Source: Bacteroidales bacterium
GTDB taxonomy: Bacteria > Bacteroidota > Bacteroidia > Bacteroidales > Dysgonomonadaceae
Direction of reading: 5' to 3'
DNA: 49,331 nt
NCBI GenBank assembly: GCA_012837345.1
Contig: DURL01000059.1
Coordinates: 1-49,331 of the forward strand
Shown: positions 43,701-49,331 of the stretch, piece after piece
Layout of the letters: each line of letters opens with the position of its first letter
How positions within the stretch are numbered: the first letter of the stretch is position 1
Translations under genes and position numbers: made by a program
Notes under the pieces: generated by a model
What the model was told of the DNA's origin: nothing
The model's input: the letters and a program-made list of their open reading frames with translations, nothing else
Database searches by the model: none

Positions 43701-44543
43701 TCAGAGATAATCGAGCGGGCTCTTGATTTTTGATTGTGCGATATCGGTGATATGGGTATATATCTCGGTGGTATTCACCGATTTGTGTCCAAGCAATTGC
43801 TGGATATAGTGAATATCCGTGCCATTCTCCAGGAGATGAGTGGCAAAGCTATGGCGCAAGGTATGGGGGGTCACCTTTTTGGTGATCCCCGCTTTTTTGG
43901 CAGCATTTGTCACCACGGTTTGCACACTCTTTTCTGAATAGCGTCCCCCACCCTGACCCTCAATCAGGTATTCCTCCGGGTGATAGGCCTTGTAGTAACG
44001 TATCAAAGATTCCTGTAACAATGAAGATAGCATCACCACGCGGTCACTGCCTCCATTGTTATTTCTGATCAATATCGTTTTGTTCTTTGAATCGATATCG
44101 GATAGCCTCAGGTGAAGCAGTTCATTCAACCGCAAACCACATCCGTATAATAGCTGGATAATGCATTTGTGTTTCAGGTTTGACACAATATCCATCAACC
44201 GACTCATCTCACCTGTTGTGAGGTATACAGGTAAGCATTTACTTTTTGTATGCGGATAGAGATGTTTGATTTGAAGTTGCCTGTGGAACACTGAGATATA
44301 AAACTTATCGATCGACGCCACTATCAAACGTTGAGAGGATAGTCCAATATGGTATTTATCAATTTTCCGGCACAGATAATCTTCAATATCCGTTTCGGTG
44401 ACCTCCAGCGGATGGCTGTATTTATCAACCACCATCTGCAGGAAACCCTTTACCGCGCTCTTGTAGTTTTGAATTGAGCAATAACTGTAGCGCTGTACCA
44501 ATAGTTCCTTCTCGAACACATCCATCCAACCGTCTGATTTCAT
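43701..44543 (-). CDS. Tyrosine recombinase, complete catalytic set
   Basis: A 280-residue integrase of the XerC/D-like type, short. An N-terminal SAM-like DNA-binding domain (residues 1-100) is followed by the catalytic domain with Arg138 (CGLRLNEL), His227 and Arg230 (HTLRHSF), His253 (LGHKSV) and nucleophile Tyr262 (IYTH). All key residues are present, so it should be active. The start at 44543 is chosen because earlier in-frame codons give a polar run unlike integrases. A TATTTTTG -7-like element lies at 44576-44583. It is homologous to the truncated recombinase at the right end. Confidence 0.92.
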   Translation of the reverse strand: MKSDGWMDVFEKELLVQRYSYCSIQNYKSAVKGFLQMVVDKYSHPLEVTETDIEDYLCRKIDKYHIGLSSQRLIVASIDKFYISVFHRQLQIKHLYPHTKSKCLPVYLTTGEMSRLMDIVSNLKHKCIIQLLYGCGLRLNELLHLRLSDIDSKNKTILIRNNNGGSDRVVMLSSLLQESLIRYYKAYHPEEYLIEGQGGGRYSEKSVQTVVTNAAKKAGITKKVTPHTLRHSFATHLLENGTDIHYIQQLLGHKSVNTTEIYTHITDIAQSKIKSPLDYL

Positions 44544-44740
44544 CGTCTTTAGATTCAATGAAACATTCGCATATGCAAAAATATATAAAAAATCAAAAGG
44601 CACGTAATAATCAGACAAACAATATGTTAAATATTGTTCCTTTTTACGCTTCTTTCTCAATAGACGAATGTTATAAATCGAATGAACAGGAATGTTGTAT
44701 TTTTAATGCGTAAATAACACGATGTGCGTCATTCTGTACT

Positions 44741-44807: not shown

Positions 44808-45977
44808 ATGATCATGAAAATCTTGTTTGATCTGGATGATTTTAATGATCTTGAGGAGATTTTTTTCAAGGAAGAAAGTCCAATATCAAGGCTCGATATT
44901 GCACGTAAGGTAATGTCTTCAGAGGTCATGGCGAGAAAGCACGAGATTTACTACTACTTATTGCGCAATAGTGTGCTATTAGGCATTGAAGAAGGAGATG
45001 AAGATGTGACGCTGATGCATCAGGAGAAAGAATTATTTCAGTCGTTAGCGGCAAAAGCCATCGTTTTAGCTGAGAATGATTATATGGTCCACAACAGACC
45101 CTGTTGGATTACAAATATGTATAACGATGTTGATGCGTACTGTAAAGATGAGCAGTTGAAAGAGATCGTCAGGAAAACGACGGTTCACATCAGAACAATG
45201 GCAACCATTAATATCGAGATTCATGCAGATGGAAAAATCACTTTTCCCATTCTTACAAAATGTTTCTATAAAAACTACATGATCATTCTATTCTCACTGA
45301 TCCAAAACTGGCATGCACACACGTTGGAGGAGAATGATGCATTGATATTCAAATCGCTGTTTCCATTTTTCCTCCATTATTGTGATCCAACGGATGTGAG
45401 ACTGACAGCATTGCCAAGAGTCCGGATTCATGACGAAGGAATCTATACACATGCAAAAAGGGTTGCCCATTTTCAATCGACTTTTAATTTTTTGCATGAG
45501 ATAGCGCACTTTGGATTCAATCATTTTGACCACACGCACTTGCAGCAGCATATCACGATTGAGGGTTTCAATGAACTCTTCCAAGACAAAGAGAACTACA
45601 AAGAATATGAAGCGGATGCCATGGCTTTCATATTGATGCAGAATTTTCCGGAAAGAGAGATCGATGATATTTATGTAGCGATCCATGGTATGTTTCAATT
45701 TTACTCTACCTTATTTATTTTCAGGGAATATTACCACCATGGGAAAAATTTCACTGAAAATATTTTTCAAAAGAGATATAGAGTTTTAACCTCCGTACCA
45801 GGCAACAAGAGAGCTTCGAATGACACCCGTGCTCTTATGGCAATTATTTCCGGGATTTATGATCGATTTTTGACGACTCTCAATTCTTCAAGTAGAAATG
45901 AGATTGATAAAACCATACAATATTACACTGAGAACAATCAGGCTCAGGTGAGTTTTGATCGATTGTTCGGATTTTAA
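44808..45977 (+). CDS. Zinc-metallopeptidase-like protein of the cassette (HEIAH)
   Basis: A 389-residue protein without a signal peptide. A zincin motif HEIAH has His230, Glu231 and His234; a further His is at 239 and EYEADAMAF (Glu266 to Asp270) follows about 32 residues later, the same kind of third-ligand segment as in M48 and ImmA/IrrE proteins. The N-terminal 220 residues are helical, with no known domain recognised. First gene of the cassette, 11 bp before the 119-residue gene. It may cut the leader of the peptide precursor, or be a defence or toxin-type protease; the sequence does not decide. Confidence 0.7.
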   Translation: MIMKILFDLDDFNDLEEIFFKEESPISRLDIARKVMSSEVMARKHEIYYYLLRNSVLLGIEEGDEDVTLMHQEKELFQSLAAKAIVLAENDYMVHNRPCWITNMYNDVDAYCKDEQLKEIVRKTTVHIRTMATINIEIHADGKITFPILTKCFYKNYMIILFSLIQNWHAHTLEENDALIFKSLFPFFLHYCDPTDVRLTALPRVRIHDEGIYTHAKRVAHFQSTFNFLHEIAHFGFNHFDHTHLQQHITIEGFNELFQDKENYKEYEADAMAFILMQNFPEREIDDIYVAIHGMFQFYSTLFIFREYYHHGKNFTENIFQKRYRVLTSVPGNKRASNDTRALMAIISGIYDRFLTTLNSSSRNEIDKTIQYYTENNQAQVSFDRLFGF

Positions 45978-45988
45978 ATTGAAACGAT

Positions 45989-46348
45989 ATGAAACAGATA
46001 AAAATTGAAGTTCAGGCCTATTCAGACGAAATTTTGCAGGAGCTATTTGAAATGGATTCTAAGCAATTGGCTGAAGGTGTGAAACAACGGATTGAAGATA
46101 CCGATAGTGAAATAGAAATGGTTGACTATTCTCCAGCTGAAAGTTTCGGGTTGGTTGAAGTATCCACTTTCCTTATAACGATAGGGTCTGGAGTTGCAAT
46201 CAACCTTATTTCTTCCTGGCTGATTGAGAAAATAAAGAAAAAGGAGAAAGATGTGGTTGCAATCACCATTAACGGCAAGTCAATCTCATCGCGTAAACTA
46301 ACCGAGGAGAGATTAACTGCAGTTCTAACTGCCATGAATCAGGAATAG
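45989..46348 (+). CDS. Small protein with one membrane segment, unknown
   Basis: A 119-residue protein. Residues 1-50 are acidic and polar; residues about 55-76 (STFLITIGSGVAINLISSWL) form one hydrophobic helix, followed by a basic stretch (EKIKKKEKD) and a short beta-hairpin-like part (VAITINGKSIS). The order polar domain, helix, basic flank, beta-rich tail resembles effector-associated constant components of bacterial conflict systems, but I cannot confirm this from sequence alone. It sits between the peptidase-like gene and the peptide gene and could anchor the system to the membrane. Confidence 0.65.
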   Translation: MKQIKIEVQAYSDEILQELFEMDSKQLAEGVKQRIEDTDSEIEMVDYSPAESFGLVEVSTFLITIGSGVAINLISSWLIEKIKKKEKDVVAITINGKSISSRKLTEERLTAVLTAMNQE

Positions 46349-46424: not shown

Positions 46425-46431
46425 AGGAGGT
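46425..46431 (+). promoter_or_regulatory. Strong Shine-Dalgarno of the peptide gene
   Basis: AGGAGGT lies 7 bases before the ATG at 46438. Most starts in this window lack such a sequence, and Bacteroidetes rarely depend on it, so the site points to high translation or to a foreign origin. Confidence 0.7.
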
Positions 46432-46437
46432 AAAATT

Positions 46438-46644
46438 ATGACAAAAAAGACAAAAGAACAGGTTAAAGCTGATTTGGCAAAAGCGAGAAAAGAATTAGAC
46501 AAGCTCGAAGCACAAATTGACGATGTTGAAGTTACCAAAGGTGCTGTAGACTGTGGCTGTAATAACCCGGGGTGTAGCGGGGTTGAGATTGTAACATACG
46601 CTGTTGCAGTTGGAGCATCATTTGCCGGCGGAGTATCTGCCTGA
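46438..46644 (+). CDS. Putative RiPP precursor peptide, 68 residues
   Basis: A 68-residue peptide directly before a radical SAM/SPASM gene. Residues 1-37 are highly charged and helical (KEQVKADLAKARKELDKLEA), as a recognised leader would be. Residues 38-49 hold three cysteines at 39, 41 and 46 (DCGCNNPGCSG). The C-terminal 20 residues are hydrophobic and Gly/Ala-rich (VTYAVAVGASFAGGVSA). The layout matches a precursor whose core is modified at Cys, Asn or neighbouring residues. It does not match the Bacteroidales double-glycine leader family. Strong ribosome binding site, and a hairpin after the stop. Confidence 0.75.
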   Translation: MTKKTKEQVKADLAKARKELDKLEAQIDDVEVTKGAVDCGCNNPGCSGVEIVTYAVAVGASFAGGVSA

Positions 46645-46651
46645 CATCATT

Positions 46652-46684
46652 GGCTCCCTGCCATTTTTTAAATGACAGGGAGCT
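46652..46684 (+). terminator. Strong hairpin between peptide and maturase genes
   Basis: GGCTCCCTG (46652-46660) pairs with CAGGGAGCT (46676-46684), extended by CATTT and AAATG across a three-base loop; the one mismatch is C-A. No T-tract follows, so this is more likely an mRNA-stabilising or attenuating hairpin than a full terminator. It lies 7 bp after the peptide stop and 40 bp before the maturase start. Confidence 0.7.
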
Positions 46685-46724
46685 AACTTGAAAACTACTG
46701 AATTAATGTTGCTTAAGAGGTTAT

Positions 46725-48113
46725 ATGTGTAATGATTCATCATATTTTACGGGAAAGCTTTTTCACGTGAATGGGCAATCCTATTTTTTCAATACCATTC
46801 CGGGAACAATCAATGAGATCGCAAACAATATGGCTCCCATATTGCACGACCACCTCAATCCTCATGGGGGTTGCGACATACCCAGATCAGGCTCATATAC
46901 GGGTGATTTGCGACCTGTTATCAGAAATCCTTATACCACTGCAGAGATTAAAGAAACGCTGAATCATAAACTACGCTTATTGGTTTTAGAGCTGACAACT
47001 TCCTGTAATATGAATTGTGCCTATTGTATCAATGGTACATCCTATGAGCAGAAAGATTGTTTTACTTCAACACAGATGAGTAAGCAATCTGCTTTTGATG
47101 GCGTTGACTATCTCATCAATCATTCACAGAACCAGTCTAAGCCTCTGGCAATTTCATTTTATGGTGGAGAGCCCCTCTTGCGCTATTCGTTGTTAAAAGA
47201 GATTACAATTTATGCAGAGAAGGAAGCGAGCAAAAAAGGAAAAGATATATTCTTCTCTATCACCACCAATGGCACACTTTTGACTGGAGAAATGATTGAA
47301 TTCTTTATACAGCACTCTTTTCAATTGGTTATCAGCCTCGATGGTCCTGCAGAAATCAATGATCGCAATAGGAAACTTAAGAATGGAGAGGGGACTTTCA
47401 ATCAAATAATGAATATACTGCAAATGATTAAAAAAAGAGATGCTGTTTATTTTAATCATATGGTACGCTGCTCAGTTGTCGTTATGCCCAATGCAGATCT
47501 TATCGAGCTGGCAACTTTCTTCAATGAGCTACATGTTAACTTAATAGTGAATTTTGTGGAGACATATGGTCTGGATGATGCCAGATTCAGACAAAAAGCA
47601 CCCAACAATAGTATGGATACTCTTCAAAATAGTTTGATTGAACGTCTTTCAAAAGAAGGGATTTCAATTTTGTCCAACTCCTCGTCTGGAAAAGATTTTT
47701 CAATTGCGTTGTTGTCTCCCATGCTCAGGCGGTTCTTAGAGTCACAATCTTCATCCCGGTTTATGGAGCTGGGGCAGTGTATCCCCGGAGCGAGCAGGCT
47801 CTATTTGGCTGCAGACAATTACTACTATCCCTGCGAGAAATTAGCAGGCCACTCAATTGCCCGGATCGGTAATATTGAAACAGGCATAGATCCCATAAAA
47901 GCTGAAAACCTTATCAAGCAATTCTACGAGATGACAAGCTCAAAATGCAGCGGATGCTGGATGAGTTCACGATGCTCGGCTTGTTTGGCATTAACCTGTT
48001 CAGGAGATGGTCTCGATGAAAACAAGTTTAATCATTATTGCAACGGAATAAAATCGTGGGGATTATCAGACTTAAAAATGATATCTAAGACAATGTTCCA
48101 AAAATGTGTCTGA
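46725..48113 (+). CDS. Radical SAM/SPASM peptide-modifying enzyme
   Basis: A 462-residue radical SAM enzyme. The [4Fe-4S] cluster motif is CNMNCAYC (Cys94, 98, 101) and GGEPLL follows, as in SAM binding. The C-terminal half is a SPASM domain with auxiliary cluster cysteines near 352, 370, 408, 411, 417, 420 and 439 (segments SSKCSGCW, RCSACLA, HYCNG). The N-terminal 85 residues, opening MCNDSSYFTGKLFHVNG, are an extension that may bind the leader. SPASM enzymes make thioether, C-C or epimer changes in RiPPs. It directly follows the peptide gene, so it is the likely maturase. The specific chemistry is unknown. Confidence 0.88.
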   Translation: MCNDSSYFTGKLFHVNGQSYFFNTIPGTINEIANNMAPILHDHLNPHGGCDIPRSGSYTGDLRPVIRNPYTTAEIKETLNHKLRLLVLELTTSCNMNCAYCINGTSYEQKDCFTSTQMSKQSAFDGVDYLINHSQNQSKPLAISFYGGEPLLRYSLLKEITIYAEKEASKKGKDIFFSITTNGTLLTGEMIEFFIQHSFQLVISLDGPAEINDRNRKLKNGEGTFNQIMNILQMIKKRDAVYFNHMVRCSVVVMPNADLIELATFFNELHVNLIVNFVETYGLDDARFRQKAPNNSMDTLQNSLIERLSKEGISILSNSSSGKDFSIALLSPMLRRFLESQSSSRFMELGQCIPGASRLYLAADNYYYPCEKLAGHSIARIGNIETGIDPIKAENLIKQFYEMTSSKCSGCWMSSRCSACLALTCSGDGLDENKFNHYCNGIKSWGLSDLKMISKTMFQKCV

Positions 48114-48144: not shown

Positions 48145-48405
48145 ATGAAAACAAGCAACTTAACAACCGGCAAAATCGCATTAGCACTTGCACTCATCGC
48201 AGTGCTTGTTCCATTCCTAATTTCTTTTCTATTCAAGTCATCTCGCGACTTTATCTGGATCAATGGACCTAATTTTATTTGGGGTTTAGAACTCATCGCA
48301 TTCGTATTAGGCATCCTCTCATGGCGCACTCTCCCGGGAAAAATAGGTGTCATCCTTTCCATAGGGATCTCATTGCTTCTTGTCGGATACTTGTCAATTG
48401 TATGA
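48145..48405 (+). CDS. Small three-helix membrane protein
   Basis: An 86-residue, very hydrophobic protein with three predicted membrane helices (about 10-30, 44-60 and 66-84) joined by short loops (FKSSRDFIWINGPN). It lies 31 bp after the radical SAM gene. Its position suggests immunity or export for the peptide, but no homology is recognised. A ZIP- or ABC-type transporter is not present in the cassette. Confidence 0.6.
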   Translation: MKTSNLTTGKIALALALIAVLVPFLISFLFKSSRDFIWINGPNFIWGLELIAFVLGILSWRTLPGKIGVILSIGISLLLVGYLSIV

Positions 48406-48420
48406 TGTGAAGTACCCCGT

Positions 48421-49331
48421 ATGTCATCAGTGTATTCCATAATGCCTCCTAAATACTCAAAGAAAGAGATGCTGGTTATCAACATATCGAATAAAACATT
48501 GCATCTGTATTTCAGCTATAACCATACCATCATTGAAAAAATTAAGAAAATCCCAACAAGATCCTGGAATCCTATCAGGAAATGTTGGGAGCTACCCTAT
48601 TCTGAGAAGTACCTGGCTGAGATAAAGCGAATAGCCAGTCAGGAAGAACTTGATGTCATCTATCGTGAAGAGATTAAAACAAAAATTCGGCCCCGCGAAT
48701 TTAAGAAAGACAGCCAGAATTTTCGTGCTTGTCCACAGTGTTATATTGACAAGCTTAAAGAACTTAGATACAGTGATAATACGATCAAAGTATACACCGA
48801 TTTATTTTGTGAATTTATCAACTACTACCATGAAGTCGAAATCTCCCATATTACTGAATCAATGATTGTTGATTTTCTTCGATATCTTGTGAATAAGCGA
48901 AATGTCTCCACATCCTATCAGAACCAAAGTATCAATGCCATCAAGTTTTATTATGAAAAAGTATTGAGAGGGCCGCGCAAGGTATATCAGATTGATCGTC
49001 CACGTAAAGAAAAGACATTGCCCGAGGTGCTGAGTACCGAGGAAGTGGCAGCCATTTTGAAGTCAATCAATAACTTGAAACACAAAGCAATCATCATGAC
49101 AATCTATTCGTCCGGTTTGCGAATCAGTGAACTAACCAACCTTAGAATTACAGACATCGACAGCAAAAGAATGCAGATACATGTGAAACAGGGAAAAGGA
49201 AAAAAGGACAGATACACTCTATTAGGAAATAAGACATTGGATACTTTGCGGTTCTATATCAAGGAATACAAACCAAAAGAATGGTTGTTTGAGGGAGCAA
49301 ATGGGGGGCAATATTCAACTCGAAGTGTTCA
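48421..49331 (+). CDS. Tyrosine recombinase, cut by window end
   Basis: At least 303 residues, continuing past the window. An N-terminal extra domain of about 75 residues (KTLHLYFSYNHTIIEKIKK, then RKCWELPYSEKYLAE) is followed by a SAM-like domain (about 105-190) and the start of the catalytic domain with Arg234 in SGLRISEL. The HxxR, His and Tyr residues would lie beyond the window. Where it aligns (KEWLFEGANGGQYSTRSVQ against EEYLIEGQGGGRYSEKSVQ), it is clearly related to the left recombinase. It starts 15 bp after the three-helix gene, so it may share its transcript; an ATG at 48442 is an alternative. Confidence 0.88.
   Translation, partial: MSSVYSIMPPKYSKKEMLVINISNKTLHLYFSYNHTIIEKIKKIPTRSWNPIRKCWELPYSEKYLAEIKRIASQEELDVIYREEIKTKIRPREFKKDSQNFRACPQCYIDKLKELRYSDNTIKVYTDLFCEFINYYHEVEISHITESMIVDFLRYLVNKRNVSTSYQNQSINAIKFYYEKVLRGPRKVYQIDRPRKEKTLPEVLSTEEVAAILKSINNLKHKAIIMTIYSSGLRISELTNLRITDIDSKRMQIHVKQGKGKKDRYTLLGNKTLDTLRFYIKEYKPKEWLFEGANGGQYSTRSV

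Follow-up and report, generated by a model that had tools for sequence, protein, structure and literature searches.

Architecture of the locus

The stretch of DNA analyzed here, referred to as the window, comprises 49,331 nucleotides from a Bacteroidales bacterium (family Dysgonomonadaceae, contig DURL01000059.1). Toward its end, the gene for a 68-residue peptide lies upstream of that for a radical SAM enzyme. A second copy of this pair, at a locus designated L003, is found in a Paludibacter sp. MAG (contig JAQVNN010000027.1). The relevant features of the window are as follows.

43701-44660, minus strand: tyrosine recombinase, bordering a low-GC island
44808-45977, plus strand: 389-residue metallopeptidase-like protein with HEIAH and EYEADAMAF (PF06114, 14.6 bits; cut-off 22)
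46425-46430, plus strand: Shine-Dalgarno-like AGGAGG, read directly, 7 nt ahead of the precursor ATG
46438-46644, plus strand: precursor peptide gene, 68 residues, ATG start; 75% identical homolog at L003:7729-7935
46438-46548, plus strand: presumed leader, residues 1-37, a charged helix with a presumed boundary
46549-46641, plus strand: presumed core, residues 38-68, the DCGCNNPGCSG block and a hydrophobic tail
46650-46686, plus strand: hairpin between the precursor and enzyme genes, its stem including CTCCCTG/CAGGGAG
46725-48113, plus strand: radical SAM/SPASM-type peptide maturase, 462 residues (PF04055, 63.2 bits; TIGR04068, 272.5 bits)
48145-48405, plus strand: hydrophobic protein, 86 residues, just downstream of the enzyme; absent beside the L003 pair
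48421-49331, plus strand: tyrosine recombinase, cut by the contig end; its N-terminal part weakly resembles HARP (20.3 bits; cut-off 25)

The two recombinases, which are 35% identical over 193 alignment columns, flank a five-gene island with a GC content of 36-40% versus 51.5% in bases 1-43000. Given the low GC and the flanking recombinases, the window copy of the pair was probably acquired. The 86-residue hydrophobic protein might possibly serve as an immunity or membrane partner. No relative of the 389-residue protein was found in 80 other related genomes (E 1e-5), in plasmids, or in viral contigs, and it may be carried on the island without any link to the pair. Since neither protein is encoded beside the L003 pair, neither seems to be an essential component. 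Also located here, at 45989-46348 on the plus strand, is a gene for a 119-residue protein with one hydrophobic segment. A resemblance to the EACC1 conflict-system proteins was considered and rejected, as PF19953 found nothing in its own genome at E up to 10.

A Pfam scan of the seven ORFs of 43.7-49.3 kb recognized neither an exporter nor a protease, the 389-residue protein being metallopeptidase-like but below the cut-off. The L003 pair sits among apparently ordinary chromosomal genes. Its neighbors encode an AraC-type regulator, a protein without a Pfam match, a ThiF-family protein, and what by eye is a UvrD-like helicase. Again, no exporter or protease was recognized in L003 4000-13000, which was inspected by eye with Pfam scans of four neighbors and the partners. 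Neither locus, as searched, displays the dedicated exporter and protease that define a class I bacteriocin system, although genes elsewhere in either genome could supply both functions. The ThiF-family gene (L003:9414-10214) begins 36 bases past the enzyme gene on the same strand. Its product is probably the housekeeping tRNA enzyme TcdA; an E1-like tailoring role for it is conceivable.

Properties and conservation of the precursor

The peptide is distinctly bipartite, as had been proposed in the original prediction. Residues 1-37 are 46% charged with a mean hydropathy of -0.80, whereas residues 38-68 have a mean hydropathy of +0.72 and a tail rich in Gly, Ala, and Val. The 19-residue stretch of highest hydrophobicity begins at position 48. 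In the ORF translation the cysteines fall at positions 39, 41, and 46, and leader residues 33-36 read T-K-G-A (T-R-G-A in L003). An AlphaFold model contains a helix from residue 6 to 29, but with a mean pLDDT of 56.8 it is of low confidence and provides a hint of helices only. The same prediction had noted the absence of a double-glycine leader, and this is borne out: residues 1-37 contain no Gly-Gly, the sole such pair being at 64-65. The GG that ends the leader of a double-glycine-leader bacteriocin is thus missing, and export of the precursor by way of a GG leader was dismissed.

Searches of Pfam, NCBIfam, and PHROGs with the precursor returned weak matches alone, mostly to the coiled-coil leader; those to FliJ, G-protein gamma, and similar proteins were discarded as coiled-coil noise. 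The precursor models of NCBIfam left the window peptide unmatched at E up to 1, apart from two leader matches of the coiled-coil type, and the PADLOC models gave no match to it at all. Likewise, no known sactipeptide precursor model was matched by the window peptide (E up to 1) or by that of L003 (E up to 10).

A search of genome contigs with the enzyme yielded 35 loci. The best of these, L003, encodes an enzyme 55% identical over residues 1-456; the other 34 lie at 37% identity or less and were not counted as family members. Directly before the L003 enzyme gene is a 68-residue ORF (L003:7729-7935) that is 75% identical to the window precursor, so that the order precursor then enzyme is common to both. 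Retained in it are Cys39, Cys41, and Cys46, the sequence Asn43-Pro44-Gly45, and the entire stretch from Val52 to Ala68. Indeed, 28 of the 31 core residues are identical, with changes at Gly40, Asn42, and Ile51, versus 22 of 36 aligned residues in the leader. The upstream AGGAGG element of the window has no counterpart ahead of the L003 start.

By the method of Nei and Gojobori, pS and pN between the two loci are 0.72 and 0.15 for the whole precursor (67 codons), 0.83 and 0.058 for the core (31 codons), 0.60 and 0.22 for the leader, and 0.80 and 0.29 for the enzyme. The core protein scarcely differs even though synonymous sites approach saturation. The core is held more tightly than the leader and the enzyme, a contrast that is large and derives from one sequence pair and 31 codons. 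With a homolog at the equivalent position, ahead of an enzyme 55% identical to that of the window, and with a frame under strong purifying selection, the precursor ORF is more than a chance one. The original prediction named a variable Cys block or an unselected reading frame as grounds for its refutation; this comparison did not refute it, all three cysteines being present in L003. The covariation with the SPASM enzyme family that it proposed to examine could be assessed in minimal form: the precursor is present in both genomes found to hold the close enzyme (2/2). The suggestion of asparagine modification fared less well: Asn42 is replaced by Asp in L003, only Asn43 is kept, and the idea was set aside as the main theme. 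Because only two close precursor sequences (window and L003) are known, acceptor residues cannot be read from conservation.

The intergenic hairpin

The enzyme gene starts 80 nt past the precursor stop codon. The region 46640-46725 folds with a free energy of -23.8 kcal/mol (z -3.40), a value equaled by none of 200 dinucleotide shuffles. The same 7-nt arms, CTCCCTG and CAGGGAG, occur in the spacers of both loci. When the two spacers were shuffled by mononucleotide 5000 times, a shared 7-nt stem never arose; this null model is lenient, and spacers of common descent would give the same result. The L003 hairpin is followed by a T run and resembles an intrinsic terminator, whereas the window hairpin lacks a T run and a terminator scan of the window found none. 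One alignment of the 200 bases upstream of both precursor genes revealed no clear common element. The natural reading is that the hairpin may act as an attenuator or partial terminator that raises the precursor:enzyme ratio, which would let the precursor be produced in excess over the enzyme.

Distribution

In all of the following counts the query genome is included; the sets overlap and are mostly samples, and other copies may exist. The enzyme was detected in 2 of 101 family genomes (1e-30), the second hit being a 27% relative in G017, and in 2 of 395 phylum genomes (1e-50), the second being G462 at 29%. Within the family of L003 it occurs in one of 250 genomes (1e-60). The precursor was matched in 2/295 order genomes (0.01), 2/395 class genomes (0.001), and 1/48 genomes of the L003 genus (1e-4). 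Both second matches were rejected as chance: that in G299 (E 0.0096, 47% over 32 residues) lies antisense in a long ORF that is membrane-fusion-like by eye, and that in G871 (22.5 bits, model positions 4-54, one internal stop) lies antisense in a DnaJ-like ORF. Viral contigs and plasmids yielded no copy of the window precursor, a DNA pattern derived from its Cys block gave nothing in viral contigs, and phages yielded no copy of the L003 precursor. A literature search, conducted without most subscription journals and all bioRxiv preprints, produced no paper recognized as describing the pair.

The radical SAM enzyme and its relatives

The adjacent SPASM-type enzyme of the original prediction is indeed there. 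It matches PF04055, contains the motif C94xxxC98xxC101, and has eight C-terminal cysteines (352, 370, 408, 411, 417, 420, 425, and 439), all of which are kept in L003. The Pfam SPASM model was not reported for it at E up to 1; the SPASM assignment is drawn from the C-terminal Cys pattern and from the SPASM maturase models in NCBIfam. The latter collection gives 76 matching models (E up to 1), headed by CcpM (TIGR04068; 272.5 bits), then PapB (182.3), RumMC (178.8), the quinohemoprotein (QHNDH, QhpD-type) maturase (173.3), and the lachnocin maturase. Cys-rich, sacti-, ranthi-, or thioether peptides are named in four of the top eight. The L003 enzyme scores 273 bits with CcpM. The cut-off for CcpM is 500 bits, far above either score, and the window enzyme lies below the curated cut-off in each of the best 25 of the 76 models; for this reason no characterized reaction can be transferred to it. 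With PADLOC only viperin-type models were matched.

An AlphaFold model of the enzyme (mean pLDDT 54.7) was used for fold searching only. Three strands and a short helix are observed in residues 7-41, where an RRE-like domain was sought, although confidence there is low. With this low-confidence model, Foldseek returned CteB first (5WHY/5WGG, TM 0.53-0.54), and CteB (5WGG) was also first in a sequence search of solved structures (E 1.4e-33).

A maximum-likelihood tree was built from 17 enzymes hand-picked from the loci at hand, with many relatives left out and four rows flagged as long. It unites the window and L003 enzymes (100/100), and the length of their branch is 1.26 changes per column. 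They group with the CcpM-like, Apre_1838, huazacin, and lachnocin enzymes, with QhpD and SCIFF apart (split 100/99). The branching order within that group is not settled. On this tree the two enzymes form a branch of their own; their best model is CcpM, far below its cut-off. Six of the 39 plasmid records matching the enzyme were examined. Five hold relatives (25-28% identity) beside annotated precursors, namely the Apre_1838 "putative sactipeptide" (two), the huazacin family (one), the lachnocin family (one), and a "putative bacteriocin precursor" (one); the sixth is a quinohemoprotein maturase.

Within 395 phylum genomes, TIGR04068 is matched in six at E up to 1e-55, including that of the window, and in none above the cut-off. 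At the end of the G462 enzyme gene is a small ORF with TKG, NCG, GC, GGV, and AV...YAG...S. In shuffle comparisons of eleven peptides against two queries, its Smith-Waterman score of 59 with the window precursor was reached by 0/5000 full and 10/5000 block shuffles, and that of 56 with the L003 precursor by two full and nine block shuffles. Taken separately, core against core gave 29/5000 and tail against tail 223/5000. Because other compared peptides also had low counts (lachnocin versus L003, 5 and 16 of 5000; a doubtful L074 ORF, 47 and 31), the notion that the G462 pair is a distant sister of the window pair is suggestive only. No exporter was recognized by eye in translations next to the G462 pair, and its peptide was not found in plasmids or viral contigs.

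Small Cys-rich ORFs follow two CcpM-like enzymes of the phylum, at L041 and L073. At L073:2483-2752 (G580), an 89-residue ORF with several CxC motifs follows an enzyme scoring 342 bits, below the cut-off. In G427 and G704, similar 42- and 44-residue ORFs (L077:1248-1376 and L078:1246-1380) precede CcpM-like enzymes; these contain two cysteines and the common end ECVGGTASTANMRATM, and perhaps represent another uncharacterized precursor family.

Proposed chemistry and alternative explanations

A short precursor beside a CxxxCxxC radical SAM enzyme, an arrangement repeated in L003, is what characterizes radical SAM/SPASM-dependent RiPPs in general. From synteny, selection, and enzyme class, we consider it nearly certain that the gene encodes such a precursor. 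The best overall explanation, and a probable one, is a new radical SAM RiPP with a thioether-bridged core, for which a nested hairpin is the favored topology. That Cys39, Cys41, and Cys46 carry the thioethers is likely by analogy with the systems nearest the enzyme; that their acceptors lie in the tail as a nested hairpin is a more tentative proposal, for which we would give somewhat less than an even chance. The thioether bridging of the original prediction is thus upheld in part: the CcpM, PapB, RumMC, and QhpD-type models and the CteB structure all point to it by analogy, but all of these models are matched below cut-off.

In the proposed scheme, the enzyme would bind the charged helical leader, abstract hydrogen atoms from core residues, and join the thiols of Cys39, Cys41, and Cys46 there as thioethers to give a compact hydrophobic peptide. 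The leader would be cleaved near the conserved T-K/R-G-A. Since the pair comes with no recognized protease or exporter of its own, general machinery of the cell would release the mature peptide or insert it into a membrane.

Subtilosin A and thurincin H are nested sactipeptides. Like the nested thuricin Z/huazacin, the window peptide has cysteines on the N-terminal side of its core followed by a hydrophobic part able to supply acceptors. It differs in that the huazacin model is unmatched, the shuffle test is negative, and the spacing is CxCx4C; any S-C-alpha linkage in it would be putative. Homology of the core to the huazacin type was rejected, the alignment being no better than shuffles (2604/5000 reach the score), and membership in the sactipeptides is not claimed. 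The thioether pairs of thuricin Z are 16-26, 12-30, 8-34, and 4-38, with the Cys donors preceding the acceptors (PMC8172795). By our arithmetic each pair sums to 42, such that donors and acceptors mirror one another. If this pattern is imposed on Cys39, Cys41, and Cys46 with similar inner spans, the acceptors would be at about residues 52-63, with which the N-side cysteines would pair in a nested hairpin. Enumerated registers include one summing to 100 (Cys39-Ser61, Cys41-Gly59, Cys46-Tyr54) and one summing to 102 (Cys39-Ala63, Cys41-Ser61, Cys46-Val56). Note that S-C-alpha and S-C-beta/gamma bonds are not separable by sequence alone.

The main rival to the nested hairpin is a ranthipeptide-like pattern of local bridges, in which a Cys is linked to the C-beta or C-gamma of a nearby side chain, for example Cys46 to Glu50, with the tail an unmodified membrane or recognition segment. 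The Cys46-X3-Glu50 spacing is kept in L003, PapB is the second-best model for the enzyme, and CteB, the top solved-structure match, is a ranthipeptide maturase (PMC10352776). PapB acts on Cys-X3-Asp and still forms the bridge after an Asp to Glu change, while a change to Asn abolished it (PMC8172795). That last result weighs against local bridges at the other two cysteines, since the residues four beyond Cys39 and Cys41 are the non-acidic Asn43 and Gly45; moreover, the tree separates the SCIFF and QhpD enzymes from that of the window (100/99). On balance we regard this pattern as unlikely. The likeness to freyrasin (PapA/PapB) and SCIFF/CteB is confined to the PapB score, the CteB match, and the one Cys-X3-Glu: the Cys-X3-Asp of PapA-type precursors does not occur, Cys46-X3-Glu50 being its only approximation, and the six-Cys SCIFF model TIGR03973 is matched by neither the window nor the L003 peptide (those of L004 and L010 match it at 75.4 and 79.4 bits).

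SPASM enzymes catalyze several kinds of reaction, and some other radical chemistry such as epimerization or C-C bond formation, with the cysteines left free for metal binding, a disulfide, or thiol chemistry, would fit an enzyme that exceeds no cut-off among its best 25 of 76 models. For the SacP23 cluster, whose enzyme is annotated as TIGR04068, the nature of the linkages had yet to be established (PMC10731318). Free cysteines nonetheless sit poorly with the naming of Cys-rich and thioether peptides in half of the eight best models and with the Cys-rich ORFs after CcpM-like enzymes in L041 and L073, and we hold such chemistry to be improbable. Least credible of all is that the ORF encodes an unmodified small membrane protein that by chance lies ahead of the enzyme gene. 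Its hydrophobic tail of about 20 residues has the requisite character, but the same neighbor, order, intergenic stem, and three cysteines recur in L003, and we give this account almost no weight.

Possible function and comparison with known systems

A bacteriocin is the default guess for the function of the peptide. A classical one is disfavored because no adjacent exporter or protease was recognized and because the core is the most conserved part of the pair; a core conserved to this degree makes a diversifying bacteriocin appear unlikely. Compatible with the thioether-bridged peptide is the possibility that it acts in or on its own producer, as a signal, a regulator, or the toxin of a toxin-antitoxin or defense unit. 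The lack of a recognized exporter or protease at either locus, a core more conserved than the enzyme, and the position of the window copy in a low-GC stretch between two tyrosine recombinases speak for such a role. Against it, the only PADLOC defense models that the radical SAM protein matches are of the viperin type, the L003 pair lies among seemingly ordinary chromosomal genes, and many RiPPs are, as is generally known, exported by machinery encoded elsewhere. We consider a role within the producer doubtful. More speculative still, and rather improbable, is the fuller picture of a two-gene, exporter-free cassette for a membrane-active or signaling peptide that serves the producer itself in defense or self-regulation, with a hydrophobic cross-linked core kept nearly invariant by a fixed cellular target, an enzyme subfamily of its own regiochemistry, and a distant sister pair in G462.

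The best-scoring model leads to the CcpM family (TIGR04068) and SacP23 of Paenibacillus polymyxa, with which the window peptide shares a Cys-containing core. Unlike the window pair, SacP23 is accompanied in its cluster by genes for an ABC transporter and a subtilisin-like protease, among others (PMC10731318). Closer in taxonomy is BGC8 of Porphyromonas gulae, in which a Bacteroidales radical SAM/SPASM enzyme also accompanies a small precursor proposed to contain thioethers; that cluster also encodes a YcaO enzyme and a PCAT exporter, and its precursor has a GG leader (PMC10352776), none of which was found at the window pair.

The pair is real and conserved, and neither the family models nor the literature searched contains anything recognized as the same system, so that to this extent it is new; its chemistry we infer. 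It is best read as a new radical SAM RiPP family, probably thioether-bridged from Cys39, Cys41, and Cys46. To our knowledge, cross-linked radical SAM peptides have been described mainly from Gram-positive bacteria. Here a precursor unlike the family models tried (Pfam, NCBIfam, PHROGs, and PADLOC) forms part of a two-gene pair from the Bacteroidales. That pair offers a compact system for probing a new branch of maturases near CcpM, and for asking how a producer benefits from a RiPP that does not diversify.
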